Part shown: one piece after another, positions 49,225 to 64,000 of the stretch
Layout: every line of letters starts with the position of its first letter
Numbering within the stretch: position 1 is the first letter of the stretch
Assembly (NCBI RefSeq): GCF_900156415.1
Contig: NZ_FTNM01000003.1
Location: forward strand, 186,001-250,000
Source: Pontibacter lucknowensis
GTDB lineage: Bacteria > Bacteroidota > Bacteroidia > Cytophagales > Hymenobacteraceae
Length of the DNA: 64,000 nt
Direction: 5' to 3'
Position numbers and translations under genes: made by a program
The notes under the pieces: model-generated
The model's input: only the letters and a program-made list of their open reading frames with translations
Told to the model about the DNA's origin: nothing
Databases searched by the model: none

Positions 49225-51539
49225 CAGAACTTGAAATTATAGGTAACAGAAGGTATAACCGGGAAGAGCGACACCTGCTTGGCCCGAAAACCGAGCGTTT
49301 CGTTGTCGTCTTCGTCCTTCACCTGCTCAAAATACACAAAGTATGGATTGCGACGGTTATAGGCGTTGTAGGCATTGAAGGTCAGGTCGGCCTCGCCACG
49401 TTTGGGCTTCAGCTTGAGTACCAGGCCCAGGTCCAGTCGGTGGAATGCATCCAGTCGGAAGCTGTTGCGGTCGCTGTACACAGGCACCACCGTAGCACTT
49501 TTGCCCTGCACATCCTGAAAGGCGAAGCGGGCTACAGGCAGTGAATAGGCGTTGCCGGTGCCATACACAAAAGCGCCGGTGAGGCTGATGCGCTTGCTCA
49601 ACTCATGCAGCACCACCACACTCAGATCATGGCGGCGGTCGTAGCGGGTCGGGAAGCGGCGTCCCTCGTTGATGTCGTCGAACTGGCGGTAACTCCACGA
49701 CAAGGTATAGCCTACCCAGCCGGTGGTGCGTCCTTTTATCTTTTCGAGGTATACCTCATTGCCGTAACTCTCGCCCTTGCCAAACAGAAACTCCGCCTCC
49801 AGGTTATCATTCACAAACAGATTGGCCCCGTCGCGGAAGTCGATCTGGCGGTGCATCCACTTATAGTACAGTTCGTTGGTAACCATGTAACGGCCACCGC
49901 CGAAGAGGTGGCTTATACCTGCGGCCACTTGTTGGGAGCGCTGCGGCTTTACGTAGTCATTGCTTGGATACCAGATGTCGGTTGGTAGCGATGCGCCGGA
50001 GTTGGCTACCAGGTGGATGTACTGCATCATGCTGGCATAGCTGGCCTTCAGAGAGGTGTTCTCGCTGAGGCTATACCTGGCAGAGGCACGTGGCTCAAAG
50101 GCACCATAAGTCTTGCCTCCACTGCTGAAGGCCGACACACGCAGGCCATAATTAAGTGAAAGCTGCGCATTTACCTGAAAGTCATCCGCCACATAAGCAG
50201 CGGCTTCCGTGGCTTCGTAATCATTGCCTGCACCAAAGCTGATGCGGTCATCGTCTGAGTCGAAGTTGAGGCGGCCGATCGTGAAGTTGTGCCGGGTGGC
50301 CATGGCACCGAATTGCAAGGTATGGCCTTTATCCAGGATCAGGCTGAAGTCGGTTTTGAGGGCAATATCACGGATATCAGAAGTCAGGTTAAAACTGAAT
50401 ACATCGATCTTATTGCTGACATTGTACTGGTAGCTGCTGCCCGAAAGCGTCGTGTTTACCTGGAAGCGCGGGTTGAACTTGTGCTGCCAGCGCAAAGCCC
50501 CTACCTTATTCCCCCAGTCGAAACCAAACTGAAAATCCGCGTCGTTAAACCCGAAGAAGTCGCGCCCAAAATAGCCGCTCAGAAACAGTTCGTCTTTCTC
50601 GCCCAGCTTGTAGTTAGCCTTGCCGTTGAGGTCGTAGAAGTAGTAGTCAGGTATAGGATTGAAGTCTTCTTTGCCTTCCTGTATCCGGTTGATCTGGCGG
50701 GTGAAGACATCAAAATAGGTACGGCGTCCGGAGAGAACAAACGAGGATTTATCTTTCACAATAGGGCCATCCACGGTCAGGCGTGAAGCAATCAGGCCGA
50801 TGCCACCGGTTACGCCGATGCGCTCCTTATTTCCTTCACGCATTTTCACATCCACCACCGACGACAGTCTGCCACCAAACTGCGCCGGGAAGCCCCCTTT
50901 GTACAGCTCCACACTTTCAACCGCATCTGGGTTGAACACGGAGAAGAAACCAAACAAGTGGGAGGCGTTGTAGACGACGGCGTCATCGAGCAATACTAGG
51001 TTCTGGTCAGGACCGCCGCCGCGCACATACAGGCCTGAAGCTCCTTCGCCACCTGATTGCACACCAGGCTTCAGTTGCAGCGCCTTGATCAGGTCAACCT
51101 CGCCGAAGATGGCCGGCAGGAGCTTTGCCTCCCTTGTCGTCAGCGTCTCGACACTCATCTGGTTGGCATTGAGTTTCTGCTGGAGCGAATTGGCTTCGAT
51201 CACGACCTCGCGCAACTGGCTGTTGGCTGGCAATAAAGCAAAATTGATGGTTAGGTCCCGGTCAGTGACCTCAATGGTGCGGGTAGCAGTTTCGTAGCCG
51301 ATGTAAGTGGCCTGCAAGGTATGGCTGCCTTCGGGCAGTTGCAGGGTATAGAAACCACGGGCATCCGTTGCAGCACCGATACGAAGCTCGGGAACCGATA
51401 CGGTAGCCCCTATCAGGGCATCTTCGCCGCCGGTGCCCCGAACGTAGCCACTAATGGTGTAGGTGCTCTGCGCAAACACATCAGGGGCAAGGAAACTGAG
51501 TAGACAAATAATGTATACAGCAAAAGCTGGTAAGCGCAT
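49224..51539 (-). CDS. TonB-dependent receptor with carboxypeptidase-like domain
   Basis: A 771-residue outer-membrane importer. Signal peptide (cleavage near VFAQ), then a carboxypeptidase-like regulatory domain at about 26-105 (TISGYVRGTGGEDALIGATV), then the plug with DLIKALQLKPGVQSGGEGAS, GLYVRGGGPDQNLVLLDDA, and GGFPAQFGGRLSSVVDVKM. The barrel runs to SVTYNFKF. Cargo unknown. It heads an operon with DUF4249 and the CPBP protease and has its own promoter box. Confidence 0.93.
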   Translation of the reverse strand: MRLPAFAVYIICLLSFLAPDVFAQSTYTISGYVRGTGGEDALIGATVSVPELRIGAATDARGFYTLQLPEGSHTLQATYIGYETATRTIEVTDRDLTINFALLPANSQLREVVIEANSLQQKLNANQMSVETLTTREAKLLPAIFGEVDLIKALQLKPGVQSGGEGASGLYVRGGGPDQNLVLLDDAVVYNASHLFGFFSVFNPDAVESVELYKGGFPAQFGGRLSSVVDVKMREGNKERIGVTGGIGLIASRLTVDGPIVKDKSSFVLSGRRTYFDVFTRQINRIQEGKEDFNPIPDYYFYDLNGKANYKLGEKDELFLSGYFGRDFFGFNDADFQFGFDWGNKVGALRWQHKFNPRFQVNTTLSGSSYQYNVSNKIDVFSFNLTSDIRDIALKTDFSLILDKGHTLQFGAMATRHNFTIGRLNFDSDDDRISFGAGNDYEATEAAAYVADDFQVNAQLSLNYGLRVSAFSSGGKTYGAFEPRASARYSLSENTSLKASYASMMQYIHLVANSGASLPTDIWYPSNDYVKPQRSQQVAAGISHLFGGGRYMVTNELYYKWMHRQIDFRDGANLFVNDNLEAEFLFGKGESYGNEVYLEKIKGRTTGWVGYTLSWSYRQFDDINEGRRFPTRYDRRHDLSVVVLHELSKRISLTGAFVYGTGNAYSLPVARFAFQDVQGKSATVVPVYSDRNSFRLDAFHRLDLGLVLKLKPKRGEADLTFNAYNAYNRRNPYFVYFEQVKDEDDNETLGFRAKQVSLFPVIPSVTYNFKF

Positions 51540-51578
51540 CTAACTAAAATTAAAACCGGGAGCTTTGAGAATCAGGCA

Positions 51579-51586
51579 CAAAGGTA
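51579..51586 (-). promoter_or_regulatory. Promoter -7 box for the TonB receptor operon
   Basis: TACCTTTG on the minus strand (TAnnTTTG), 39 bases ahead of the ATG. Confidence 0.5.
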
Positions 51587-51701
51587 CACACAAATAACCT
51601 GATCCGCCCCAGAAAAACGCCCCTTATCGGATCGTCATTAGGAGAATATTTTTTAATGAAACAGCGCGATTTCCAAAATGTTCCTTTCGGGGGAGGGATT
51701 C

Positions 51702-53573
51702 TTAAGGCATGGTATCATTTAGCCAGGAGGCACGCAGGCGAAGCTGTCGCTCTGATGGAGAGGCAACCGGCTCTAGCAGGTGCAGTACTTCCCGTTTGAC
51801 AGCGGTCACTTTTCCTGTGAGTTTTTTAGGTTTCACATTGCCCTTTGCGTCTTTGCGTCCTACGGTGATCTCTATTTTGCTGCCCGGCTTGGCCTGTTGC
51901 AGTTCTTCGCCTATGATGTCGCGGATGTTCATGGGCGTAATCTCTCTGCCGTTGAAAGCCAGCAGTTGGTCTCCTTCCCTGAATCCCATTTGCTGCCCGA
52001 ATTCATCCATATCATCCGCCTCAGCCACCGTGATCTTGTCGGCTTCGCGGTCATAGCCTGGCACAAAACCCCCGTAGGAATTGACCAGCTGCACTGAAAC
52101 AGGCTCGTATTTGACACCTACTTTGTTGAACAATTCTCCTAAAGGCAGCGGCTCACTGCCCTCCACATAGCGGGCGAAGAAGGTGCGCATCTCCGGGTAG
52201 GTGAGTTCGGCTATCTTGTCAAACAGCTCGTCGTCTTTGAAAGGGCGGCCTTTGCCGTAGGTTTTGGCCAGATCCTGCATCAGGTCTACCAGACCATACT
52301 TGCCATCTGACAGGTCGCGCAGCTGTATATCCAGCGCCATCCCGATCAAAGCTCCCTTCTGGTACACGTTGCCATACTGATTTTCGTACTCGTCCAGCAC
52401 TTTGGCACTCATCTCCGTGAAAGGCAGGGTATCGTTAAAAGCCATGGAGTTGAAAATGTACTCCCGGATCTTCTGCATGAACTCGTCTACCGAAATCAGG
52501 CCTTCATGCACCTGCACATGCGAAGCAAAATACTCCGTAACACCCTCATACAGCCAGAGGTGCTTCGACATGCGGGGGTTGATGAAGTCAAAGTCGTGGA
52601 TTTCTTCGGATTGAATGGATAGCGGTGTCACGATGTGAAAGAACTCGTGGGCGGCTACATCGCGCATGGTACTGTTGAAGCGCTCCTCCGGCATTTCTGG
52701 CAGGTAGTAAACGGAAGAGTTGGAGTGCTCCAATGCACCATAAGAACCTGACTTGCCCGGTCGCTCCGGCACATAGATCAGAAAGGCATACTTGTCGACT
52801 GGCAGGGTACCGCCAAGGTAGCTGCGCTGTGCTTCGAGTATGTCGCGGATGTTGTCGGCGATAGGCTTGGATGTCACCCGGCCGGTAGGGGAGTATACGG
52901 ATACGAGCACCTCAGTCCCACCCAAATTCAGTACCGTCGTGTCAGGTTGATTATACATCAGCGGCGAGTCGGCCAGCTCTACGTAATTGGGCACAGTATA
53001 GGTGTCGGCAGTAGCTGTGCTGGACGTAGCCTGCAGTGCCGTGGAACCATAAAAACCGGCAGGTTTTGTAACAGTGAGTTCATAAGGTACCTGCTTTAGT
53101 CCGTCGAAATAACCCACGAAGCCAAACGGGTTGAGCAGAAAGTTCTTGTCTTCTTCGATGTTGGTGCCGCCCGGCTCAAACACCACATCCTGCCTTCTTT
53201 CGGCATCAAATGTATCGTCAACCCAATAGGTGATTCTGTCCAGGTTCTGGGCCTGTGTGATGCGCCAGCGGTTGGTGTCAATTCGCTCCACAGGCAGCGG
53301 CTTGCCCTGCTTGTCCAGCGCCTGAAACTCCGACACGAACTTGCCGAAGTCTGATACGGAGTAGGTGCCGGGCACGATCTTGGGCATGTTATAAATGGCC
53401 TCGCCCTGCTTGATGGCCGGTGGGCGCAGGCTTACCTGTACCTTATCACTTTTAACCTGAGTGAGGTCGATGGTAACGGCATAGCGAGGTTCAGGTGTCG
53501 ACTGAGTGGCAACTGAGGAACAGCTGAAATGAAGGCTGAGCAGCAGGAGCAGGATTGTTTTGGTTAATTTCAT
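51702..53573 (-). CDS. M61-family metallopeptidase with PDZ domain
   Basis: A 623-residue exported peptidase. The N-terminus has a signal with a possible lipobox (LHFSCS near residue 18), followed by the M61 N-domain (MPKIVPGTYSVSDFGKF). The zinc motif HEFFH is at H309, E310, H313, with further active-site residues in WLYEGVTEYFASHV. A PDZ domain lies near 515-590 (MGFREGDQLLAFNGREI). Glycyl-aminopeptidase-like family. Third gene of an operon with DoxX and the SDYE-repeat protein. Confidence 0.92.
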   Translation of the reverse strand: MKLTKTILLLLLSLHFSCSSVATQSTPEPRYAVTIDLTQVKSDKVQVSLRPPAIKQGEAIYNMPKIVPGTYSVSDFGKFVSEFQALDKQGKPLPVERIDTNRWRITQAQNLDRITYWVDDTFDAERRQDVVFEPGGTNIEEDKNFLLNPFGFVGYFDGLKQVPYELTVTKPAGFYGSTALQATSSTATADTYTVPNYVELADSPLMYNQPDTTVLNLGGTEVLVSVYSPTGRVTSKPIADNIRDILEAQRSYLGGTLPVDKYAFLIYVPERPGKSGSYGALEHSNSSVYYLPEMPEERFNSTMRDVAAHEFFHIVTPLSIQSEEIHDFDFINPRMSKHLWLYEGVTEYFASHVQVHEGLISVDEFMQKIREYIFNSMAFNDTLPFTEMSAKVLDEYENQYGNVYQKGALIGMALDIQLRDLSDGKYGLVDLMQDLAKTYGKGRPFKDDELFDKIAELTYPEMRTFFARYVEGSEPLPLGELFNKVGVKYEPVSVQLVNSYGGFVPGYDREADKITVAEADDMDEFGQQMGFREGDQLLAFNGREITPMNIRDIIGEELQQAKPGSKIEITVGRKDAKGNVKPKKLTGKVTAVKREVLHLLEPVASPSERQLRLRASWLNDTMP

Positions 53574-53596
53574 GTTTGCGGACGCGAGTTAACAAC

Positions 53597-54049
53597 CTAG
53601 TTAACGGTCACGGGCTGCTTTTGGGTTTGTACTTGCCTTTTCTCTAAAAAAGAATCGACGGAAAGGGGACCGGCACCGTTGAACAGGTAAAAGAAACCTG
53701 CAAAAATAAGCTCAGCTGCCGGATAGTACTGCGGAAAGGACTGCCCGATGTGTACGATCAAAATGGCAGCCGTGAAATTGATGATCAGCAACAGGCCCGC
53801 AATCCGCACACCCCAACCAAGCAGGAGCATCAGGCCAATCAGAAATTGGGTATAGACCGAAAGATGAGCGGCCACCAGCGGGTAGGGCACCCCATGTGAC
53901 TGCAGAAAATCCCGGAACTCGAGCATACGCTCCCAACTAAACACGTTATCCTGTACGCCATAGATCAGAAAAACACCCATTGCAAAACGCAGGAACACCA
54001 CCCCATAGGCTTTGTGACGACGAAAAAAAGTGAAAGCGTTCCTTGTCAT
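53597..54049 (-). CDS. DoxX-family membrane protein
   Basis: A 150-residue, four-helix membrane protein (helices about 13-31, 57-80, 80-104, 108-129) with the DoxX pattern VFLRFAMGVFLIYGVQDNVF. Family members relate to quinol:oxygen or sulfur metabolism and redox stress, but for this type the role is open. It starts three bases after the SDYE-repeat gene and 23 bases before the M61 peptidase gene. Confidence 0.85.
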   Translation of the reverse strand: MTRNAFTFFRRHKAYGVVFLRFAMGVFLIYGVQDNVFSWERMLEFRDFLQSHGVPYPLVAAHLSVYTQFLIGLMLLLGWGVRIAGLLLIINFTAAILIVHIGQSFPQYYPAAELIFAGFFYLFNGAGPLSVDSFLEKRQVQTQKQPVTVN

Positions 54050-54052
54050 AGG

Positions 54053-55279
54053 TTACCTGAGAGCACTGATGACTTTGTTTTTCTCATAATCGGAGCCAAT
54101 GGTATTGGCTGCTTTCTCCACTTCCGCACGAAGATCTTTATTGTCGGCAGGTATAGCACTGGCAATGTTGCGTAGCACTTTGCCCTTTTCGTAGTCGGAG
54201 CTTATGCGGCTTACGACTGGCAGCAGCTCCTTGTACTGGGCCTGTGATAGTTTGTGGTTCTTTACAACAGCGTTGATGATTTTCGCCTTCTCGTAGTCTG
54301 ATGAAAATTTATCGATGATGGAGAAGGCTGGCTTGTAGTGATACTGGATGAAGTCTGACTGTTTAGCCAGTTGCTGCAGTACTTTGGCTTTTTCGTAGTC
54401 AGAGGAGATTTTACCCGTCTGCTCCAGCGCCATGGCCATGCTCTCTTTGCTCAGATCCGGCGTCTCCAGCAAATGCAGAAGAGCTTTGCGTCGCTCGTAG
54501 TCTGAATTGATTTTGCCGCTCACCTGCAGGTAGCTGCTTACCACGTCCTTGTTTTTCAGGTGTGCGGCTGCTACGGTACCCAATGCTTTGCGGCGTTCAT
54601 AGTCAGAAGTCACGTGCTTGTCTACAAACTGGAGCGACTGTTTCACATCGGCAGACTTCAGGTCAGCCTGCTGGTACAGGTGATGCACGAAGCGCATCTT
54701 CGCATGTTCACTGCCTGCTTTTTCCGCCTCAGCGAGTACTCCTTTCGCGCCTGCTTTACTATAAAGGTCGTTCACCAGCTCGGCTATACCTATACCTGTG
54801 TTGGCCATCAGGTCAGGCATTATCTGCTGCAGCCACTCTCTGCCTGCCGGCTCGTAGGCTACCTTCTTGCCGTTCTCTGAGTAAGTGCGGGTCAGGTTGC
54901 CGTTCGCATCGCTGGTAATCTCGAGCCGCTTGGTGTCGTCGTTAACCGAGCGCATGTACTTGAGGTAGCCGTTCGGGGAGATGCTTTTGATGTCTTTCAG
55001 GTCATCGGTGAGGGTGACAGTCCCTTGGCGCTTCAGCTCTTCCCGCTTGTTGTCATCCGTGTTGATGTATACCTGTTCTCCGTCCTTGCCGTCTTTGCCC
55101 TTTCCGCCTACCTGAATCCGGACATTGCTGTTTTTCTTCTTTGCCTTCACGGTGTCCTGCTGCATTATTTCCACACCGGTAATAAGGCGCAGACTGGTAG
55201 AGGCGGCAGGGCGCAGGTCAAGCATGCTCAGGACGCCAGCGGCAAGTGAAGCAAAAAAGATAGTAGATGGCTTTGTCAT
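54053..55279 (-). CDS. Exported protein with six 34-residue SDYE repeats
   Basis: 408 residues. Signal-like N-terminus (about 1-27), a Lys/Gly-rich stretch (KGKDGKDGEQVYI), a central domain (DLKDIKSISPNGYLKYM), then a helical repeat region to the end. Six copies of SDYE-(K/R)-x-K-(A/V/I)-(L/I) start at 54607, 54505, 54403, 54301, 54199 and 54094; the spacing is 34,34,34,34,35 residues. I recall similar repeats attached to M56/BlaR1-type metallopeptidases; here there is none. Probably a periplasmic protein-binding superhelix. First gene of the DoxX-M61 operon. Confidence 0.75.
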   Translation of the reverse strand: MTKPSTIFFASLAAGVLSMLDLRPAASTSLRLITGVEIMQQDTVKAKKKNSNVRIQVGGKGKDGKDGEQVYINTDDNKREELKRQGTVTLTDDLKDIKSISPNGYLKYMRSVNDDTKRLEITSDANGNLTRTYSENGKKVAYEPAGREWLQQIMPDLMANTGIGIAELVNDLYSKAGAKGVLAEAEKAGSEHAKMRFVHHLYQQADLKSADVKQSLQFVDKHVTSDYERRKALGTVAAAHLKNKDVVSSYLQVSGKINSDYERRKALLHLLETPDLSKESMAMALEQTGKISSDYEKAKVLQQLAKQSDFIQYHYKPAFSIIDKFSSDYEKAKIINAVVKNHKLSQAQYKELLPVVSRISSDYEKGKVLRNIASAIPADNKDLRAEVEKAANTIGSDYEKNKVISALR

Positions 55280-55321
55280 AGTTTTTATTTTTAATGATGC
55301 ATTTTGTTGGGTAAAGGATGC

Positions 55322-55355
55322 TTCAGCGGGTATCTTTTTTTGATGACCCGCTGAA
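55322..55355. other. Perfect 10-bp hairpin between permease and SDYE-repeat gene
   Basis: TTCAGCGGGT (55322-55331) pairs with ACCCGCTGAA (55346-55355) around a T-rich 14-base loop. There is no T tract beyond the stem on either strand, so it may be a weak terminator for the ABC permease gene or a leader structure. Confidence 0.5.
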
Positions 55356-55396
55356 ATTCACCTTCAATTAACAATACAAACACAAACTCAATTAAA

Positions 55397-57787
55397 TTAC
55401 TCCGTGCGCAGGGCCCTTATGGGGTCTGCCAGTGCTGCCTTCATGGCCTGATAACTGACTGTGGCTAACGCTATCGTCATGGCGGCTAATCCAGTTGTCA
55501 CAAATACCCACCAGCTAATCTCGATGCGGTACGCAAAGTTTTGCAACCACTTATCCATGCTAAACCAGGCAATAGGTATAGCCATTACTATCGCAATAAG
55601 AACCAAGAGCGCAAAGCTTCTGGAGAGTAGTAGCACAATTTCTGACACCGATGATCCGAGCACAATCCTGATACCTATTTCCTTTGTGCGTTGCTCGGCC
55701 ATGTAAGCTGACAACCCAAACAAACCCAGGCAGGCAATGACAATAGTCAGGATAGTGAAATATGTAAAGATGATCAGCATTTTCTCTTCGGCACGGTACT
55801 GCTGCTGAAAACTCTCGTCCAGAAACTGGTAATCCATCGGAAATGCGGGGAAGTGTTTCTTCCATACCTTATCCATATCCGCTAAGGTGGCAGAAAGATC
55901 AGCCTCGGTATTTACACGCGTCAGCAACCTCCCGAAGTGCGGCTCCAATCGGATAATGAGTGGCTCAATCTTGCTATGCAGTGATTTATAGTTGAAGTCT
56001 TTTACCACGCCGATCACTTTGCTGGTGAGCGTATCGTCGGGGAGTTTAATGCGTTTATCTAATGCATCTGTCCAGCCGAACTCTCTGGCAGCAGCTTCAT
56101 TTATAAGGTAGCTGTGTGTTTCGTCGGAGCGAATTTCCCGTGAATACCCGCGCCCTTCGGCTAGCTTTATTCCCATCAGATCTATGTAGGAGTAATCCAC
56201 GCCAATATGGTTAATTGTCCGCGTGACCATCTTGTGGTTAATCTCCACCTGAAAGTCAGAGACAAGGGCATCTTCACCTGGCAGTTGCTGGGCACTGGAG
56301 GTATAAGCAATTTGTGGTAACTCAAGCATCTCCTTCTTGAGGAGCGCCAGTTTTTCCTTCTGCCTCACCCAGCCGATAGATGGTATTTTAACAGAAATGA
56401 CATGCTCTTTCTGAAAGCCAAGATGCACACCCTTTAAGTGTTGCATCTGGTTATACACCACTACAGTGCCTATAATCAGGATGAGGGATATGGTAAACTG
56501 CAGCACGACTAAAGCCTTGCGAAGCCTGGCGTTGCCGCTATTGGGGGTAGCATTTGCCTTGAGGGCTTCAACCGGCTTGTAGCCTGACAGGTATAAGGCC
56601 GGATATCCACCTGCCATAAAGCTTACAAAAATGACAATGCCGAGTATGAACAAGCCTACTTCGGGCTTCAGGATAAAGATGGTGTCAATACTTCTTTCGG
56701 TCAGGCTGTTGAACAACGGGAGTATTAACTCTACTATAGAGAGCGCCACTACAACAGCAATCAGGGTAAGCATGAAAGACTCAGCTAAAAACTGCTTGAC
56801 CAGCTGACTGCGGCTGGCTCCGATTGTTTTGCGAAGGCCCACTTCCTTAGAGCGTTTGGCAGACCGTGCTGTGGCTAGATTAATGTAATTGATGGTTGCG
56901 ATGAGCAGGATAAACACCGCTATGACACTGAAGATATAGATGTAGGTAATATTGCCTACATCTCCAACCGGATACTCCAGGTCTTTATCCAGGTAAGCGT
57001 CCGTAATGGGTTGAATGTTGTACCCGGTAACAGCGATACCATCCATCTGTTGGTTTGGCTTTGCTTTCCGGTTGTACAGTTCCGGCATTTTTGACGTTAA
57101 CGCGCCCGCCTGCTCAGCTTTAAATAGTTTCAGATAGGTATAGCCACCCACCATCTGCCACTGGTTCAACATGTATTCTGTGTTGGTGTCAAAGTGTAAT
57201 GGGAAGACAGCGTCGATCTGTAAGTGTGACGGCCGTGGGTGTGAGATTACCCCCGTCACCAGGAAAGTACTGGCGATATAAGTAAGTGGTTTGCCTAGTG
57301 CAGAGTCGGCACTGCCAAAATACTTTCGGGCCAACTCTTCGGTCACTACTACTGAAAATGGGTTTTGCAGGGCAGTAGCGGGATCGCCAGCTACAAAGGG
57401 AAAAGGCAGTACTTTGAAAAAATTACTGTCAGCGTAGGAAATGCCTACAGTAAGGGCATTTTCTTTTGAACGGAGCGAATTCTGGCCCATTTGCAGAAGA
57501 AACGTTGCCTGCTCTACCTCCGGATACTCCTCGGTCAGGGTTTGCGCGAGCGGACCATGGCTGAGTGCGGTTTTCTTAGCCTGTCCGTTCAGGCTCATAT
57601 CACTCGTAACTCTATACAGCCTGTCAGCATCACTAAAACTCTGATCGTAGCTCAGTTCATGTTGCAGGAACAGGTAGATGAGTATGCAGGAAGCTATACC
57701 TACAGCCAAACCAATGATGTTGATGGCAGCATGTACCCTGTTTCGTGTTATGCTGCGCCAGGAGGTAAGCCAGTAATTCTTGAGCAT
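55397..57787 (-). CDS. MacB/FtsX-type ABC transporter permease
   Basis: 796 residues. N-terminal helix (about 21-41), a large MacB-type periplasmic domain, three helices around 285-420, a second periplasmic domain, and three C-terminal FtsX helices with the family motif YMAEQRTKEIGIRIVLGSS. The duplicated FtsX layout is typical of Bacteroidota antimicrobial-peptide or lipid-export permeases. It follows the ATPase gene by 165 bases in the efflux cluster 55.4-60.0 kb. Confidence 0.9.
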   Translation of the reverse strand: MLKNYWLTSWRSITRNRVHAAINIIGLAVGIASCILIYLFLQHELSYDQSFSDADRLYRVTSDMSLNGQAKKTALSHGPLAQTLTEEYPEVEQATFLLQMGQNSLRSKENALTVGISYADSNFFKVLPFPFVAGDPATALQNPFSVVVTEELARKYFGSADSALGKPLTYIASTFLVTGVISHPRPSHLQIDAVFPLHFDTNTEYMLNQWQMVGGYTYLKLFKAEQAGALTSKMPELYNRKAKPNQQMDGIAVTGYNIQPITDAYLDKDLEYPVGDVGNITYIYIFSVIAVFILLIATINYINLATARSAKRSKEVGLRKTIGASRSQLVKQFLAESFMLTLIAVVVALSIVELILPLFNSLTERSIDTIFILKPEVGLFILGIVIFVSFMAGGYPALYLSGYKPVEALKANATPNSGNARLRKALVVLQFTISLILIIGTVVVYNQMQHLKGVHLGFQKEHVISVKIPSIGWVRQKEKLALLKKEMLELPQIAYTSSAQQLPGEDALVSDFQVEINHKMVTRTINHIGVDYSYIDLMGIKLAEGRGYSREIRSDETHSYLINEAAAREFGWTDALDKRIKLPDDTLTSKVIGVVKDFNYKSLHSKIEPLIIRLEPHFGRLLTRVNTEADLSATLADMDKVWKKHFPAFPMDYQFLDESFQQQYRAEEKMLIIFTYFTILTIVIACLGLFGLSAYMAEQRTKEIGIRIVLGSSVSEIVLLLSRSFALLVLIAIVMAIPIAWFSMDKWLQNFAYRIEISWWVFVTTGLAAMTIALATVSYQAMKAALADPIRALRTE

Positions 57788-57952
57788 AGATCTTTACCGC
57801 TTTAGTTACTCAGTTTATTTGGTCAATAGGCTAAGGCTATACCTGCAGTATGCTTACGCTACCAGGGCCGCCGCACACATGAAGGTGAAGCCTATCTGCT
57901 ATTGCATAGAGGCTGACATCACACAAGGCAGAAGACTTTTCTGCTATCAGCC

Positions 57953-58672
57953 TTAGAGCAGCTCGGCAGCGTGCTTTCTGGCGTTAAGACTTTCTGTCAC
58001 GATCTGGCCGTCAAACAGGTTTACAATGCGGTGCGCATATTCAGCATCAGAAGGAGAGTGCGTTACCATTACCACCGTCGTGCCGGCATCGTTGAGCTCA
58101 GACAGCAGCGACATCACCTCTCGGCCATGAACTGAGTCCAGGTTACCGGTCGGTTCGTCGGCCAGGATCAGGCTTGGGTTGGATACTGTGGCACGGGCAA
58201 TGGCGACACGCTGCTGCTGACCACCGGAAAGCTGCTGTGGGAAGTGCGCATGGCGGTGGGCGATGCCCATGCGTTCCATGGCCTCTTTCACGCGCTTGTC
58301 TGCCTCGGCACGCGGTATACCCAGGTAAGCCAGTGGCAGACCAATGTTTTCCTCTACCGTGAGCTCATCGATCAGGTTGAAGCTCTGGAACACAAAGCCC
58401 AGGTTATGCTTGCGGATCTTGGCACGCTGGCGCTCCGATGCATGGCTGATGTCCTGGCCCAGGAAGCGGAAAGTACCGCCCGAAGGACTGTCAAGCAAAC
58501 CGAGGATGTTCAGCAGCGTGGACTTGCCACAACCGGATGGACCCATCACCGCCACAAATTCGCCTTTGGCGATGCGCAGGTCCACACCCGCCAGGGCAGT
58601 CGTCTCAACCGTATCGGTGATGTATTTTTTCTCTAACTGCTGTGTTTCGATGATAAATTCTTCCTTGCTCAT
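57953..58672 (-). CDS. ABC transporter ATP-binding protein, MacB/LolD type
   Basis: A 239-residue nucleotide-binding subunit with Walker A GPSGCGKST near residue 45, the Q-loop in FVFQSFNLIDELTVEEN, signature LSGGQQQRVAIARA, Walker B LILADEPTGNLDS and the switch His in VVMVTHSPSDAEYA. It energises the MacB-like permease encoded downstream, acting with the HlyD-type adaptor encoded upstream. Mechanotransmission-type export rather than substrate translocation is likely for this family. Confidence 0.95.
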   Translation of the reverse strand: MSKEEFIIETQQLEKKYITDTVETTALAGVDLRIAKGEFVAVMGPSGCGKSTLLNILGLLDSPSGGTFRFLGQDISHASERQRAKIRKHNLGFVFQSFNLIDELTVEENIGLPLAYLGIPRAEADKRVKEAMERMGIAHRHAHFPQQLSGGQQQRVAIARATVSNPSLILADEPTGNLDSVHGREVMSLLSELNDAGTTVVMVTHSPSDAEYAHRIVNLFDGQIVTESLNARKHAAELL

Positions 58673-58679
58673 GATATCT

Positions 58680-58742
58680 TAATTGTTATGTTATTTAATA
58701 GTTAAATTATCAGATTTTTGATGGTTAAATTGTTCATTCAAC
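58680..58742. repeat. AACCATT-type AT-rich tract, inverted copy 3
   Basis: The reverse complement contains GAACAATTTAACCATC and AATTTAACTATTAAATAAC, like the tracts at 26741 and 44545. It fills the 77-base gap between adaptor and ATPase genes. Confidence 0.35.
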
Positions 58743-58749
58743 CCTTAAT

Positions 58750-60003
58750 TTACTTTAACTCCAGCCTATCTATATCGCCGTAGCTTTCATAGGAGGAGAG
58801 GACCACTTTCTCACCTGGCTTCAGTCCATCAAGCACTTCGTAATGCTTCGGGTTCTGGCGTCCGAGTTTGATGGAGCGTTTGGTCGCATGGTCTCCTGAC
58901 TTATCCACCACGAATATCCAGCTGCCGCCTGTGCTTTGGTAGAAGCCGCCGCGTGGCAGGAGTACGGCCTTGCCGCCATCATTCAGGTTTAGCCTGATCT
59001 GCAGCGTCTGACCGCGGCGTATACCTTGCGGAGTGGTGTCCCCGGCAAATTCCAAGTCTACCTGGAAAGTGCCGGCTTGCACTTCTGGGAACACTTTGGC
59101 TACTTTTAGTTTATAGTTCTGTCCGTTGAAGTCGAAGTTGCCTTCCAACCCGGGGTATATGCGGGAGATGTAGTGCTCATCAATAGAGGCCCTCACCTTG
59201 TAACCGCTCATGTCGTCTACCTGGCCAATGTTCTCGCCGGGGCCTTTTGACTCGCCCACTTGCGCCTTCAGCGTAGAAAGCTGACCAGATATAGGGGCGG
59301 TTACATACAAGCTGTTCAGTGTGTTGCGGGCCATGTTGATATTGGCCTGCATTCTTCTGATGGACTCATCCAGCTGGCGCAGGCGGTCATCCAACAGCTT
59401 TGCGTCCTGCTTCACGGAGCGGTCGCCCAGAATCTTACGTTTCTTAAGGTACTCGTATTCGTCTTTAGAGGCTTGAAATTCCTCCTGCGAGATCACTTTT
59501 TCATCGAACAAGACTTTATTCCGGTTGTAGGCCCGCTCAGCAGTTGCCAGGTTGTATTCAACCTCGGCTAGCTGGTTCAGCTGTCTGATCTGCTCCTGCT
59601 TCATGGTGATCTCAGAATTCTGACGTTCGTTCATGAGGTCATAGAGCTGCGTTTCACGGGTCATGAAGTCAATCTGGAGCGTCGTGTTGGAAAGCTTCAG
59701 AATAGTGTCTCCTTTTTCCACCATGCGGCCGTCATCGGTATAGATCTTCTCCACACGGCCACCTTCTGATATGTCCAGGTAAAATGTTTTGAGAGGCTCC
59801 ACCGCACCATCAATGGCGATGAACTCCTGGAACACACCATTCTCCACTGTGCCCACGGTAATGCGCTTGCTGTCAACGTTGAGTTTAGAGGAGTGTTCTG
59901 CAAAAAGTAGGTTGTATAGAATCACCACCAACAGCAGGGCAGCACCGGCTATAGCAGCAATTTTCTTAGGGGTGTATTTTTTCTTTTCTAGGACGCGATC
60001 CAT
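58750..60003 (-). CDS. HlyD/MacA-type periplasmic adaptor
   Basis: 417 residues. N-terminal helix (about 13-34), a beta-barrel/lipoyl half (EGGRVEKIYTDDGRMVEKGD), a long coiled coil at about 115-225 rich in Gln/Glu/Arg, the second lipoyl half (YVTAPISGQLSTLKAQVGE), then a membrane-proximal barrel. It bridges the MacB-like permease to an outer-membrane channel, not encoded nearby. First gene of the efflux cluster, behind a sigma-54-like promoter and divergent from the NtrC-type regulator. Confidence 0.93.
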   Translation of the reverse strand: MDRVLEKKKYTPKKIAAIAGAALLLVVILYNLLFAEHSSKLNVDSKRITVGTVENGVFQEFIAIDGAVEPLKTFYLDISEGGRVEKIYTDDGRMVEKGDTILKLSNTTLQIDFMTRETQLYDLMNERQNSEITMKQEQIRQLNQLAEVEYNLATAERAYNRNKVLFDEKVISQEEFQASKDEYEYLKKRKILGDRSVKQDAKLLDDRLRQLDESIRRMQANINMARNTLNSLYVTAPISGQLSTLKAQVGESKGPGENIGQVDDMSGYKVRASIDEHYISRIYPGLEGNFDFNGQNYKLKVAKVFPEVQAGTFQVDLEFAGDTTPQGIRRGQTLQIRLNLNDGGKAVLLPRGGFYQSTGGSWIFVVDKSGDHATKRSIKLGRQNPKHYEVLDGLKPGEKVVLSSYESYGDIDRLELK

Positions 60004-60041
60004 AGCGGGGAAAGAGTTTCTGTGTAATGCTGATCAAAGAT

Positions 60042-60058
60042 TGCCAATAAATGTGCCA
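60042..60058 (-). promoter_or_regulatory. Sigma-54-like promoter for the efflux operon
   Basis: The minus strand reads TGGCACATTTATTGGCA. The -24 block TGGCAC is perfect and the spacing to TTG is correct; the -12 block has TTGG in place of TTGC. The predicted start is about 30 bases before the adaptor ATG at 60003. The divergent neighbour is an NtrC-type activator. Confidence 0.55.
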
Positions 60059-60293
60059 TTGTAATTAAGATGCTGTATAGCAGTCTTTTGTGTATTGTTT
60101 GACTGATGGTGTCAAGTTAAACTGTTCGGTATCGTACACTCCTTTGTCTGTATGCGAACACTTGAACACACAAGTAAAAATACACTGTTTTTCTCTTTCT
60201 GAATTTGCGGCGGGACATGGTGCTGTAACTTTTGGTATTCTGAAACAGAAAGTATTTCTTTACCCCGAAGAATTTGTAAAGCCCTTGCAGCTC

Positions 60294-61673
60294 ATGCGGA
60301 AAATTGATTGTAAAATACTGGTTGTAGATGACGAAGAAGACATCCTGCTGGCAAGCAGACTGCTGCTCAAGCAGCACTTTGCTACGGTGGTGACAGCTTC
60401 GGATCCCTATAGCATCCCGGCTTTGCTGCAGGAGCACCGTTTTGATGTAGTGCTGCTGGATATGAATTACAGCACCGGCGCCACCTCCAGTAAAGAAGGA
60501 CTGCACTGGCTGAAACAGATCCTGAAATTGGCACCGGAAGTCAAGGTAATTCTGATGACTGCCTATGGCGATATTGAGCTGGCAGTGCGTGCCCTCAAAG
60601 AAGGAGCCACCGATTTTGTGCTAAAACCATGGCAGAACGATAAACTGGTGGCTATCCTCAAAACTGCCTGTCAGCAGAATAGGGGGGTAGGCAAACGCAG
60701 TGCTGAAACAGCGGCGCGAAACCAGACCGCCTTCCACTATGCCGGTTTTATTGGCGTATCACCGGCCATGCAGCGGGTATACCAGACGATAGAAAAAGTA
60801 GCCGGTACGGATGCCAATGTGCTGATACTCGGAGAGAACGGCACAGGCAAGGAAGTGGCAGCACGTGCCCTGCACCGTAAGTCGAAACGGGCCGATAAGG
60901 TTTTCGAGAAAGTAGATTTGGGTGCTATCAGTGAGACACTCTTCGAAAGTGAGCTATTCGGCCACGCCAAAGGCGCCTTTACTGATGCCAAAGAAGAGCG
61001 CATGGGACGGATGGAGGCTGCAAATGGTGGGACTTTGTTCCTGGATGAAATAGGCAATCTGTCGCTGCCGCTCCAGGCCAAACTCTTGTCTGTGCTGCAA
61101 AACCGCCATGTGATCCGGCTTGGTACCAACAAGTCCCGCCCGATTGATATACGCCTGATCTGCGCGACCAATATGCCGCTGTACGATATGGTGCGGGAAG
61201 GCACCTTCCGCCAGGACCTGCTGTACCGCATCAACACAGTCGAGATATACCTGCCCCCATTGCGGGAGCGTCGGGAGGATATACGCTTGCTGGCGGAGCA
61301 CTTCCTGCGCGTGTACAGCCAGAAATATGAGCGTGAAGGGCTAGGTATAGCACCAGGCACCATCCGCCGGCTGACCGAGTACCGCTGGCCGGGCAATATT
61401 CGGGAGCTCGACCATGCTCTGGAGCGAGCCGTGATTTTGTGTGACCAGCAGGAGCTGCAGCCAGAGGATTTTTATTTTGCACCGGGCGATGTGTCAGGCA
61501 AGGCCGCCGATAAAGAGCCTGTTCTGGAGAGTGACTATACCTTGGAGGCGCTCGAGAAAATGATGGTGCAGAAAGCCCTTGTCAAACACGCCGGAAACAT
61601 CACACATGCAGCAAAGGAACTTGGTATCACCAGAACCGCACTTTACCGCCGAATAGAAAAGCATGGTTTATAA
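60294..61673 (+). CDS. NtrC-family sigma-54-dependent response regulator
   Basis: 459 residues from the ATG at 60294 (MRKIDCKILVVDDEED); the frame is open to 60090, but those residues do not look like a receiver domain. Receiver at 1-125 with phospho-acceptor D56. AAA+ domain with Walker A GENGTGKE and Walker B GGTLFLDEIGNL. The sigma-54 contact loop reads GAFTDA (D231), not GAFTGA. C-terminal Fis-type HTH (NITHAAKELGITRTALYRRI). It overlaps the kinase gene by 11 bases and probably activates the divergent efflux operon. Confidence 0.93.
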   Translation: MRKIDCKILVVDDEEDILLASRLLLKQHFATVVTASDPYSIPALLQEHRFDVVLLDMNYSTGATSSKEGLHWLKQILKLAPEVKVILMTAYGDIELAVRALKEGATDFVLKPWQNDKLVAILKTACQQNRGVGKRSAETAARNQTAFHYAGFIGVSPAMQRVYQTIEKVAGTDANVLILGENGTGKEVAARALHRKSKRADKVFEKVDLGAISETLFESELFGHAKGAFTDAKEERMGRMEAANGGTLFLDEIGNLSLPLQAKLLSVLQNRHVIRLGTNKSRPIDIRLICATNMPLYDMVREGTFRQDLLYRINTVEIYLPPLRERREDIRLLAEHFLRVYSQKYEREGLGIAPGTIRRLTEYRWPGNIRELDHALERAVILCDQQELQPEDFYFAPGDVSGKAADKEPVLESDYTLEALEKMMVQKALVKHAGNITHAAKELGITRTALYRRIEKHGL

Positions 61674-63042
61674 CCGCTTCAGAGCAAACCTACTGCTGCG
61701 GGTGGGGCTGTTGATCATCAGCATCGCTGGGATCACACTGGTCCTGTACCGCACCGAATGGTACATGACCGCCGTGTGCATCGGCTTGTTGCTGCTCTTT
61801 CAGCTCTACGACCTCGTGCATTATGTGGAGCGAACCAACCGCGATATCTCGAGTTTTCTGGAGGCGATACAGCACTCGGACTTTACGCAGCATTTTGCTG
61901 TAAAAGGGGGTAACCCAGCATATAAGGAGCTTTACCAATCCTTCAACGATGTGACTGATGCCTTTCAGCGCATCAAAACCGACAAGCAGGCGCACCACCT
62001 GTACCTGCAGGCGATCGTGGAGCACATTGGCGTAGGTATCGTTTCTTTTGATGAGAGTGGACGTGTGGAGTTGGTGAATCACGTGTTAAAAGAAGTACTG
62101 CACACGCCCCACCTGGAGCACATAGAATCGTTAGGCCGCATTAGCGAGGAGCTGGTGGAGGTGATGCGCAGCATCGGGCACAATGAGAGAAGGCTCGTTA
62201 CCCTGCAGGTACGGGATGAGCAGCTGCAGCTGGCCCTGCATGCCACCATCCTGTTTTCGCAGGGACGAACGCTCAAGATCGTTTCGTGCCAGAACATCAA
62301 ATCTGAACTGGAGGAGCAGGAGCTGCAAACATGGCAGAAGCTGATCCGGGTACTCACCCATGAAATTATGAACACCATCACACCGGTCATCTCCCTTACG
62401 GCTACTGTTTCGCAGCTGATGGAAGAGGAGGTAGTTAGGAAAGCTGATGTCGGAGAGATACCTGAACAGGAGGTGCTGGAGGATATACAGACGGGATTAC
62501 AGACCATTGAGAAACGCAGTACCGGGATGCTCCACTTCGTAAAGAACTACCGCCGCCTGATGCGTGTGCCAACCCCGGAATTGAGAACCGTAAAAGTAAA
62601 AGACCTGCTGAAGAGTGTGCAGACCTTACTTCAGCCTGAAATGGAAGCCAGGCAAACGAAGCTCTCCATCTACCTGCGGGAGGAAAAGGCGGAGTTGCAG
62701 ATAGACCCGGAGCTGATCGAACAGGTGCTGATCAACCTGATCAAGAACGGGATGGAAGCAAGCCATAAGGCTGCAGGCCCCTGTGTGGAGGTAATTGCCT
62801 ATCAGGAAGAGCAGGACAGAAATCGCTTTAGGATTGATGTGCAGGACAATGGGACAGGGATTGCTCCTGAAGACCTGGATAAGATTTTTATTCCTTTTTT
62901 TACCACCAAAAAGCAGGGCTCAGGTATAGGTCTCAGCCTCTCCAGGCAAATCATGCGGCAGCATGGAGGCAGCATACGTGTCAGCAGCCCCCCAGGCGGC
63001 CCTACCACTTTCAGCCTGATCTTCCATATCAATGATGAGTAG
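61663..63042 (+). CDS. NtrB-like sensor histidine kinase
   Basis: 459 residues. Two N-terminal helices (about 9-29 and 31-50) with almost no periplasmic loop, so it probably senses a membrane or cytoplasmic signal. A PAS-like domain lies at about 115-215. The phospho-acceptor is H233 in LTHEIMNTITPV. ATPase motifs: N box LINLIKNGMEA, G1 DNGTGIAPEDL, F/G2 FFTTKKQGSGIGLSLS. It is the cognate partner of the overlapping regulator gene. Confidence 0.93.
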   Translation: MVYNRFRANLLLRVGLLIISIAGITLVLYRTEWYMTAVCIGLLLLFQLYDLVHYVERTNRDISSFLEAIQHSDFTQHFAVKGGNPAYKELYQSFNDVTDAFQRIKTDKQAHHLYLQAIVEHIGVGIVSFDESGRVELVNHVLKEVLHTPHLEHIESLGRISEELVEVMRSIGHNERRLVTLQVRDEQLQLALHATILFSQGRTLKIVSCQNIKSELEEQELQTWQKLIRVLTHEIMNTITPVISLTATVSQLMEEEVVRKADVGEIPEQEVLEDIQTGLQTIEKRSTGMLHFVKNYRRLMRVPTPELRTVKVKDLLKSVQTLLQPEMEARQTKLSIYLREEKAELQIDPELIEQVLINLIKNGMEASHKAAGPCVEVIAYQEEQDRNRFRIDVQDNGTGIAPEDLDKIFIPFFTTKKQGSGIGLSLSRQIMRQHGGSIRVSSPPGGPTTFSLIFHINDE

Positions 63043-63161
63043 TAAGTAATTAAGAATGGTTTGGAAGTCGTTGAGTGGAAGCGCCAAGCAGCTGAAGCTC
63101 AGGTATACCAGCTTCCGCTACTCTTAATTACAAATTATAAAATTACTCACTACTCATCATT
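63031..63161. repeat. Large imperfect inverted repeat between kinase and trxA
   Basis: The 21-base arm 63031-63051 (AATGATGAGTAGTAAGTAAT and one more base) matches the reverse complement of 63141-63161 at 20 of 21 positions. An inner pair TAATTAAGA / TCTTAATTA lies at about 63048 and 63122. The left arm includes the kinase stop codon. It could act as a terminator for both convergent genes. Confidence 0.7.
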
Positions 63162-63166
63162 GATTC

Positions 63167-63472
63167 CTACAGGTTTTGCTGAATGATTTGGTTTAGCTGA
63201 TGTCCCGGCACAGCACCGGCCTGTTTCCAAACTACCTGTCCGTTTTTGAAAAGCATAAAAGTCGGCACGCCCTGCACACGGTACTGCTGTGCGGCTGCCT
63301 GGTTCTTGTCCACGTTTATTTTGATGACCTTCAGCTTACCCGAAAAGTCCTTCGCTAGTTGCTCCACCACCGGGTTCATCATTTTGCAGGGGCCGCACCA
63401 GTCGGCATAAAAGTCCACGAGTACCGGCATGCCCGGGCTTTTGATCAGTTCAGCGAATGATTTCTTTGCCAT
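63167..63472 (-). CDS. trxA: Thioredoxin
   Basis: A 101-residue cytoplasmic thioredoxin with active site WCGPCK (C26 and C29), the cis-Pro region GVPTFMLFKNG, and a conserved Asp in VDFYADW. It reduces protein disulfides and supplies electrons to reductases. Convergent with the kinase gene, single-gene unit with its own promoter box. Confidence 0.96.
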   Translation of the reverse strand: MAKKSFAELIKSPGMPVLVDFYADWCGPCKMMNPVVEQLAKDFSGKLKVIKINVDKNQAAAQQYRVQGVPTFMLFKNGQVVWKQAGAVPGHQLNQIIQQNL

Positions 63473-63503
63473 AGCTCTCTTGTTTAACCTATTTTACGAA
63501 GTG

Positions 63504-63511
63504 CAAAGCTA
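63504..63511 (-). promoter_or_regulatory. Promoter -7 box for trxA
   Basis: TAGCTTTG on the minus strand (TAnnTTTG), 31 bases ahead of the trxA ATG. Confidence 0.5.
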
Positions 63512-63714
63512 AAGGATAAAAGCCGCGAACACCAACTAGTCATACGGAAGGCACATCATGTTACGCTTTTCTGAGTGGAGGATACACGGCGTGGATACTG
63601 CATCCCGGCATTATAAATGCAGGATGGACTGCGCTCTACCTGGTTTGTATACCAACCGGGAACTATAGCCAGCGCGGCTTGATTATTGTAATGACAAGAT
63701 TTTCCCTGATTAAC

Positions 63715-64000
63715 ATGACGAAGTTAAAATATAAGCTGAAGTACTGGATCAGCTCTCTGGTGATTGCTGCTCTATTAGTAACAACCACCTTCCCGCTCAA
63801 CTCATGCAGCAAAAGCGATGCGGCTGTACCTGAAAACGTAGTGGAGCGCGAACTGCTCGTTTCGTCAGAGAAGGTAGGCACCCTGCCGGCTGCCATGCTC
63901 AAGCAACTGGCCGGCGCCTATGCCGGTAGCTTCCAGAATCAGATCAAATATGATGTGGCGATTTACAAAGTAAATTACCGCACTACTTTCCAGGGACGCG
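63715..64000 (+). CDS. Lipoprotein, probable alpha/beta hydrolase (partial, runs off the end)
   Basis: The open frame continues to the last base. From the ATG at 63715 (an alternative in-frame ATG is at 63691) it encodes a lipoprotein signal ending LNSC (Cys near residue 35), then ERELLVSSEKVGTLPAAML and YDVAIYKVNYRTTFQG. This pattern resembles, from memory, the start of exported Bacteroidota alpha/beta hydrolases (lipase/prolyl oligopeptidase-like). The catalytic region is outside the window, so function is only suggested. Confidence 0.7.
   Translation, partial: MTKLKYKLKYWISSLVIAALLVTTTFPLNSCSKSDAAVPENVVERELLVSSEKVGTLPAAMLKQLAGAYAGSFQNQIKYDVAIYKVNYRTTFQGR

Follow-up and report, generated by a model that had tools for sequence, protein, structure and literature searches.

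A 64,000-nucleotide stretch of the Pontibacter lucknowensis genome (NCBI RefSeq assembly GCF_900156415.1, contig NZ_FTNM01000003.1, positions 186,001 to 250,000; hereafter the window, with coordinates counted from its first letter) was analyzed around a gene for a protein whose repeats begin with the motif SDYE. The SDYE-repeat protein (408 amino acids; 54053-55279, minus strand) is followed on the same strand by a DoxX-family membrane protein of 150 amino acids (53597-54049) and an M61 peptidase of 623 amino acids (51702-53573). The gaps between the three genes are 3 and 23 bases, exactly as noted in an earlier sequence-only reading, which suggested that the three proteins could form one envelope sensing or repair complex. 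The span given in that reading was too short, and the cluster extends upstream through a MacB/FtsX-type ATP-binding cassette (ABC) permease (55397-57787, minus strand), an ABC ATPase (57953-58672, minus strand) and a HlyD-type adaptor protein (58750-60003, minus strand) to a divergent pair on the plus strand that consists of an NtrC-type response regulator (60090-61673) and a sensor histidine kinase with two hydrophobic segments (61663-63042). For most NtrC homologues the alignment begins only at about codon 48-69, and translation of NtrC therefore probably starts downstream of 60090.

Pfam positively identifies the two proteins downstream of the repeat gene. DoxX matches PF07681 with 41.3 bits against a cut-off of 23.6 and has four hydrophobic segments, in agreement with the four-helix membrane protein described earlier. 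The assignment to the M61 metallopeptidase family also holds: M61 N-terminal and catalytic domains are present, PF05299 and PF17899 score 55.2 and 147.6 bits against cut-offs of 22 and 23, and the predicted peptidase has a single HExxH motif at residue 309 and a weak PDZ match. The ratio of nonsynonymous to synonymous divergence (dN/dS) was calculated against relatives at seven loci. The values are 0.065-0.106 for the repeat gene (6/7 loci computable, two with saturated dS), 0.049-0.063 for DoxX (3/7 loci) and 0.035-0.163 for M61 (5/7 loci), which shows purifying selection on each of the three genes wherever a value could be obtained. One Pontibacter relative, G002 (L055), has an in-frame TAG within the M61 match.

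The six SDYE units begin at residues 225, 259, 293, 327, 361 and 396 (motif span 54083-54607, minus strand) with spacings of 34, 34, 34, 34 and 35 residues, which matches the earlier description. Among 20,000 shuffles of the repeat protein, 122 contained one SDYE and none contained more than one. The codons vary between the six sites and the program TRF found no DNA repeat there, which indicates that the motif is maintained at the protein level. A degenerate seventh unit (SEHA) begins at residue 190, and the last unit is truncated by the carboxyl terminus.

An AlphaFold2 model built on a 28-sequence alignment has a mean predicted local distance difference test score (pLDDT) of 86.1 and a predicted template modeling score of 0.75, with pLDDT below 50 at residues 23-31, 35-52 and 58-64. 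The model consists of a small β-domain (about residues 53-140; 54860-55123, minus strand) followed by an α-solenoid (residues 142-408; 54056-54856, minus strand), and the repeats thus share a predicted fold, which the sequence-only reading had named as a test of its proposal. Helices are predicted to start at residues 226, 260, 294, 328, 362 and 397, each one residue past the serine of an SDYE motif. A serine in this position acts as the helix N-cap, and a glutamate three residues further can complete the capping box. The serines at 225, 259, 361 and 396 are invariant in the 28-row alignment and Ser293 is kept in at least 90% of the rows. Relatives retain the serine and vary in the rest, and the motif therefore seems to have a structural role and not a catalytic one.

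Fold searches returned generic helical repeats for the solenoid (best Z = 13.2, root mean square deviation (rmsd) 6.0, 226 residues aligned), a Z score that helical models commonly reach. The β-domain modeled alone (pLDDT 85.4) has no clear relative, and its best match is to p32 (Z = 6.0, rmsd 4.0, 85 residues aligned). Relatives of this domain also occur alone as proteins of 121-130 amino acids in family f23. Lone β-domain proteins were seen in four genomes of that family (L121:6169-6534, L122:6490-6870 and L103-L106; open frames of 122-130 amino acids), and by eye the start resembles a lipoprotein signal in the two that were read. A β-domain followed by serine-initiated helical repeats defines the SDYE family, and the window protein has both parts.

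The SDYE family is not named in the libraries searched, and the DoxX protein and peptidase beside it are of ordinary kinds. DUF4476 (PF14771) weakly matches the repeats in 7/28 family members at E ≤ 0.01 (best 1.4e-6), but the window protein scores 18.5 bits against a gathering score of 22.5. NCBIfam gave the repeat protein no match near any cut-off and a plasmid search gave no match. Weak PDB sequence matches to kelch proteins at about residues 140-183 (best E 0.0015) were taken as chance and discarded. A literature search found no paper on the family, although most subscription journals were outside its reach.

Searches across the order found the family in 36/291 genomes and 16/115 genera, and searches across the phylum found it in at least 14/395 genomes, with P. 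lucknowensis itself included in both counts. Of the 35 other order matches 26 were fetched with wide flanks, and of the 11 new phylum matches 8 were fetched. The neighborhoods of 34 loci outside Pontibacter were read, with neighbors named by similarity to a few reference proteins (phmmer or tblastn) and with Pfam on examples. The gene next downstream of the repeat gene encodes a LytS-type kinase (PF06580) in 23/34 loci, and a kinase-kinase-LytTR triad is found in 20. Paired LytS kinases with LytTR are thus the most frequent neighbors of the family. The Pontibacter neighbor pair differs from them in being of the NtrC type, and the best match in the window genome to the kinase of L067 has 31% identity. 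The other outside loci carry BlaI-M56 upstream (two), a sigma factor upstream (two), a DUF2807 protein (two), the β-domain alone (two) or nothing recognized (three). Pfam on the scanned neighbors confirms the kinases, LytTR, M56, BlaI (Penicillinase_R), DUF2807 and the two sigma factors. L117 and L118 also have an anti-sigma factor, which was named by eye and had no Pfam hit. A tblastn search (E 1e-4) of the fetched stretches found M61 or DoxX in 0/34 outside loci. Two FtsX permeases stand directly upstream of the repeat gene in L091, the only outside locus seen with an adjacent FtsX.

The sequence-only reading described the repeats as usually fused to M56/BlaR1-type sensors. Such fusions exist. 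In the M56 protein of L115 the repeats lie near residues 542-671 (hhalign E 9.9e-11), past its last hydrophobic segment at 379-397, and the M56 protein of L116 is alike; in both loci BlaI-M56 precedes a free-standing family member. The penicillin-binding sensor domain of BlaR1 lies in the carboxyl-terminal part, which is where the repeats of L115 stand. The word "usually" is rejected for the Bacteroidota sampled, because the repeats are found in 2/34 M56 matches from eight genomes, two of which were chosen for having the fusion, and both adjoin a free-standing copy. The class of the two fusion genomes has the family in 2/117 genomes. Family members of the sampled Bacteroidota are as a rule free-standing, and the M56 fusion is real but rare among them. 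The window protein differs from the BlaR1/MecR1-type sensors (PF05569) and their BlaI partners in having no PF05569 match at E ≤ 1 and no adjoining BlaI.

A quick tree places the Pontibacter proteins in one clade (Shimodaira-Hasegawa-like approximate likelihood ratio test support 99), joined next by the lone L070 and then by L067 and L068 of LytS-LytTR operons. This order of neighbors makes the Pontibacter context look like a recruitment, on a tree that cannot tell gain from loss.

A scan of genome contigs with the window repeat protein matched four close Pontibacter loci, and 50 Pontibacter genomes were compared. M61 is present in 50/50, with or without the repeat gene. Full-length SDYE is present in 10/50 and lies directly upstream of M61 or DoxX-M61 in 10/10. 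DoxX is present in 16/50, two of them incomplete (G030 and G040); among the ten SDYE genomes it is whole in eight, a 26-codon remnant in G012 and absent in G022. DoxX occurs in 16/19 genomes that carry SDYE or a derivative, compared with 0/31 others (Fisher p 2e-10, which ignores kinship), where the remnants of G014 and G027 were classed as derivatives on weak matches (best independent E values of 0.0032 and 0.00014) and G035, with an open reading frame (ORF) of similar start by eye and no DoxX, was counted among the 31. A tree-based test gave five pairs, four in the same direction and one without a difference (p 0.125). SDYE and DoxX travel together as the tighter pair and M61 is the fixed anchor. 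The M61 tree, whose 50 rows leave out the second M61 copies of G032 and G028, requires five or more changes in the status of SDYE or its derivative.

An ORF of 81-90 amino acids occupies the SDYE slot in seven genomes (L059-L065, for example L060:6242-6514). This short form has the amino-terminal ~50 residues in common with the window SDYE protein and shows pairwise dN/dS of 0.14-0.42; on the M61 tree, genomes with it are interspersed among those with full-length SDYE. In the clade of 12 genomes to which the window belongs, five have full SDYE and HlyD at the locus and seven have the shortened protein and no HlyD there. Four short-ORF genomes (L184-L187) have a second histidine kinase-NtrC-FtsX-HlyD-ABC cluster elsewhere, with a HlyD that is 77-78% identical, and SDYE was not found in it. 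DoxX is split in G040 (L064) by about 860 bases that contain a 264-amino acid ORF, and in G012 (L163) it is cut down to its last 26 codons.

The upstream genes form a MacAB-type efflux cluster, as shown by HlyD, ABC ATPase, MacB_PCD and FtsX domains. It differs from known MacAB systems in having the solenoid protein, DoxX and M61 at its distal end and a divergent NtrC-kinase pair. A TolC-like OEP gene follows M61 in some relatives and is not found in the window. In 9/10 SDYE genomes HlyD and SDYE share a contig, with HlyD upstream; the contig of the tenth, G007, breaks and FtsX precedes SDYE. Six other SDYE genomes that were read have the same cluster order with one to three permeases, with the exception of G019, which retains SDYE and lacks the permease at the locus.

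The region between NtrC and HlyD contains a tentative sigma54-like element, TGGCACATTTATTGG (60044-60058, minus strand), and TGG-N8-TTGG at sigma54 spacing is kept in 8/8 aligned upstream regions, all from SDYE genomes. A palindrome, TGTACGATACCGAACA (60123-60138, minus strand), is a candidate operator, and a related copy, TGTTCGCATACAGACA, lies at 60145-60160. The palindrome pattern TGTNCG-N4-CGNACA is whole and accompanied by the related upstream copy in seven of the eight regions; the region of L194 began inside the palindrome. The pattern occurs in the window at this site only, with 0.25 matches expected on both strands. Scans of promoters and terminators found fewer sites than the mean of shuffles.

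The 117-base intergenic stretch that separates FtsX from the repeat gene folds with a z of -4.84 and contains a conserved, covarying RNA hairpin (55292-55387, minus strand). A covariance model of eight sequences found one sense match in the window, with a weak antisense echo at that site. Applied to 65 loci (874 kb) at E ≤ 0.5, the model gave 29 matches, made up of 21 distinct sense, four antisense and four overlapping-locus matches; 12/21 sense matches have E ≤ 0.01, and seven of those are from training genomes. In alignment A8, 89.8% of cells pair across 16 sequences compared to 76.0% in shuffles and the covariation is 0.464 compared to 0.241 (sd 0.025) in shuffles and at most 0.142 when slid, scores that are inflated by related rows in an alignment that is fitted to the model, has the stem forced in some rows and leaves out L163 and L054, both of which also have antisense matches. 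Rfam gave no match overlapping the hairpin at E ≤ 1 in window positions 51000-63900 and none at the gathering threshold in L056, L129, L147 and L158.

The next gene after the hairpin, counted among SDYE, M61, DoxX and FtsX, is SDYE in eight cases, M61 in 11 and DoxX in two. The hairpin is at most 33 bases from the end of FtsX in 14/21 and further off in five, and the FtsX end was not found in two. G019, which has SDYE and no FtsX, is without the hairpin, and in G010 SDYE starts 1.4 kb past it with an ORF between. From these neighbors and distances, the hairpin could be part of the FtsX end or the leader of the downstream unit.

Toastrack-like genes also occur at the locus. By tblastn they lie within 9 kb upstream of M61 in 16/52 M61 loci, distributed as 13/33 loci without SDYE or a derivative, 2/2 remnant loci, 1/10 SDYE loci and 0/7 short-ORF loci; within 2.2 kb of M61 they are found in 11/33 loci without SDYE or a derivative and in none of the other classes. 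All these counts are lower bounds from fetched flanks that differ in length. Pfam found Toast_rack_N above the cut-off in 3/3 proteins scanned and LiaF-like_C in two; examples of the LiaF/LiaG kind are L135:5813-6568, L137:4643-5446 and L150:4260-5003. The cluster therefore repeatedly holds envelope-stress-type proteins. In L072 and L073 the gene before the repeat gene encodes a DUF2807 protein, of the toastrack type (Pfam on L073). One study describes toastrack proteins (DUF4097/DUF2807/DUF2154) as coupled partners of two-component systems, ABC transporters and sigma factors (PMC11237479). The toastrack is a β-helix that is proposed in that study to be intracellular. The SDYE protein differs in having a small β-domain and an α-solenoid and in being probably exported. 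Toastrack structures were absent among the fold-search matches listed, which is uninformative.

What the analysis shows directly is the fold model, the neighborhoods, the tree and the conserved upstream sequence. Three unrelated signaling systems stand beside the family and the repeats are fused to the sensor end of M56 proteins, which suggests an extracytoplasmic sensing or adaptor role. The explanation that we prefer, with about even confidence, is that the window protein belongs to a family of extracytoplasmic sensors or adaptors and was recruited in Pontibacter to an NtrC-flanked, MacAB-like efflux cluster. A wider form of this idea is offered tentatively. In that form the SDYE family would be a plug-in sensor module of Bacteroidota, extracytoplasmic and so far undescribed. 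It would work for three or more unrelated signaling machines (LytS/LytTR pairs, BlaR1/M56 proteases and extracytoplasmic function (ECF)-type sigma factors), both as a separate subunit and fused to M56, and would be wired to the efflux cluster in Pontibacter. The likeliest partners in Pontibacter would be the adjacent kinase and the MacB-like permease, with DoxX as a possible membrane partner.

Several observations weigh against recruitment of a sensor or adaptor to the efflux cluster. Export of the window protein is the weakest link: its N-terminus has no clear signal peptide, and no hydrophobic segment above the threshold was found in it by a test that is insensitive, because M61, whose start resembles a lipoprotein signal by eye, fails it as well. 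A segment above the threshold is present in 5/6 tested relatives and not in L067, and the window protein is probably exported. The 34 outside loci include three with nothing recognized beside the repeat gene, and many come from few genera and are not independent. HlyD is present in 41/50 Pontibacter genomes and SDYE in 10/50, so the efflux pump does not require SDYE, and G019 retains SDYE at a locus that lacks the kinase and NtrC. The spacing of the sigma54-like element fits, but its -12 box is GG and not GC; a strict TTGC scan of the upstream regions found none, and in the whole window a scan with the sigma54 consensus gave 10 matches, a chance-level number (6.76 expected). The palindrome with its single site in the window and the final sigma54-like pattern kept in all eight regions were both chosen after the sites were seen. 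The hairpin leaves both options for SDYE, on or off the efflux transcript. Export in the Pontibacter clade, binding, the direction of signaling, NtrC control and co-transcription are the steps that we infer.

The dedicated complex of SDYE, DoxX and M61 suggested by the sequence-only reading was downgraded and is now judged unlikely. Its structural part stood, in that the repeats share a predicted fold, and its prediction of conserved linkage was borne out within the genus, where all ten SDYE genes lie directly upstream of M61 or DoxX-M61, 16 of the 19 genomes that have SDYE or a derivative contain DoxX compared with 0/31 others, all three genes are under purifying selection, and the hairpin stands like a shared leader ahead of SDYE and, in genomes that lack SDYE, mostly ahead of M61. 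The linkage did not extend beyond the genus. M61 is in every Pontibacter genome examined, and neither M61 nor DoxX was found beside the family in the 34 outside loci; DoxX is absent or a remnant in 2/10 SDYE genomes, and the tree-based association of SDYE with DoxX has five pairs (p 0.125).

An accessory of the MacB-like permease, acting as a periplasmic substrate handler of the efflux pump and not as a sensor, would account for the position of SDYE downstream of the efflux genes and for the two permeases upstream of the repeat gene in L091, and solenoids often bind peptides. This role seems improbable, since L091 is the only locus outside the genus seen with an adjacent FtsX and most efflux clusters of the genus are without SDYE. 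Least probable is a reading of SDYE as an expendable envelope protein that fills a variable slot and is functionally unconnected to its neighbors. The content of the slot does vary, from full SDYE and the 81-90 amino acid derivative to decayed remnants or a toastrack gene, or with nothing recognized, and SDYE or a derivative changes five or more times on the M61 tree, but the gene is under purifying selection and its link to signaling genes recurs in distant families, which makes this account very unlikely.

Under the favored reading, family members would be sensor or adaptor subunits of paired LytS-type kinases with LytTR, of BlaR1/M56 proteins or of an ECF-type sigma factor. In Pontibacter one lineage would have been recruited to the efflux cluster, where it precedes DoxX and M61. 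The signal that activates the kinase and NtrC would be a toxic substrate or stress on the envelope, and NtrC would act on the sigma54-like promoter of HlyD-ABC-FtsX. SDYE-DoxX-M61 would be expressed by read-through or via the structured RNA. The solenoid would bind an envelope peptide or protein and would relay the state of that ligand either to the kinase or to the MacB-like permease. In this scheme M61 would be a constant neighbor that clears peptides and not an obligate partner, and DoxX would be the closer companion of SDYE.

If this reading is correct, the SDYE family would provide a candidate input for those LytS-type kinases that, judging by their hydrophobic segments, have little space for an outer domain, such as the two of L078. 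One solenoid module would then serve several kinds of envelope signaling.

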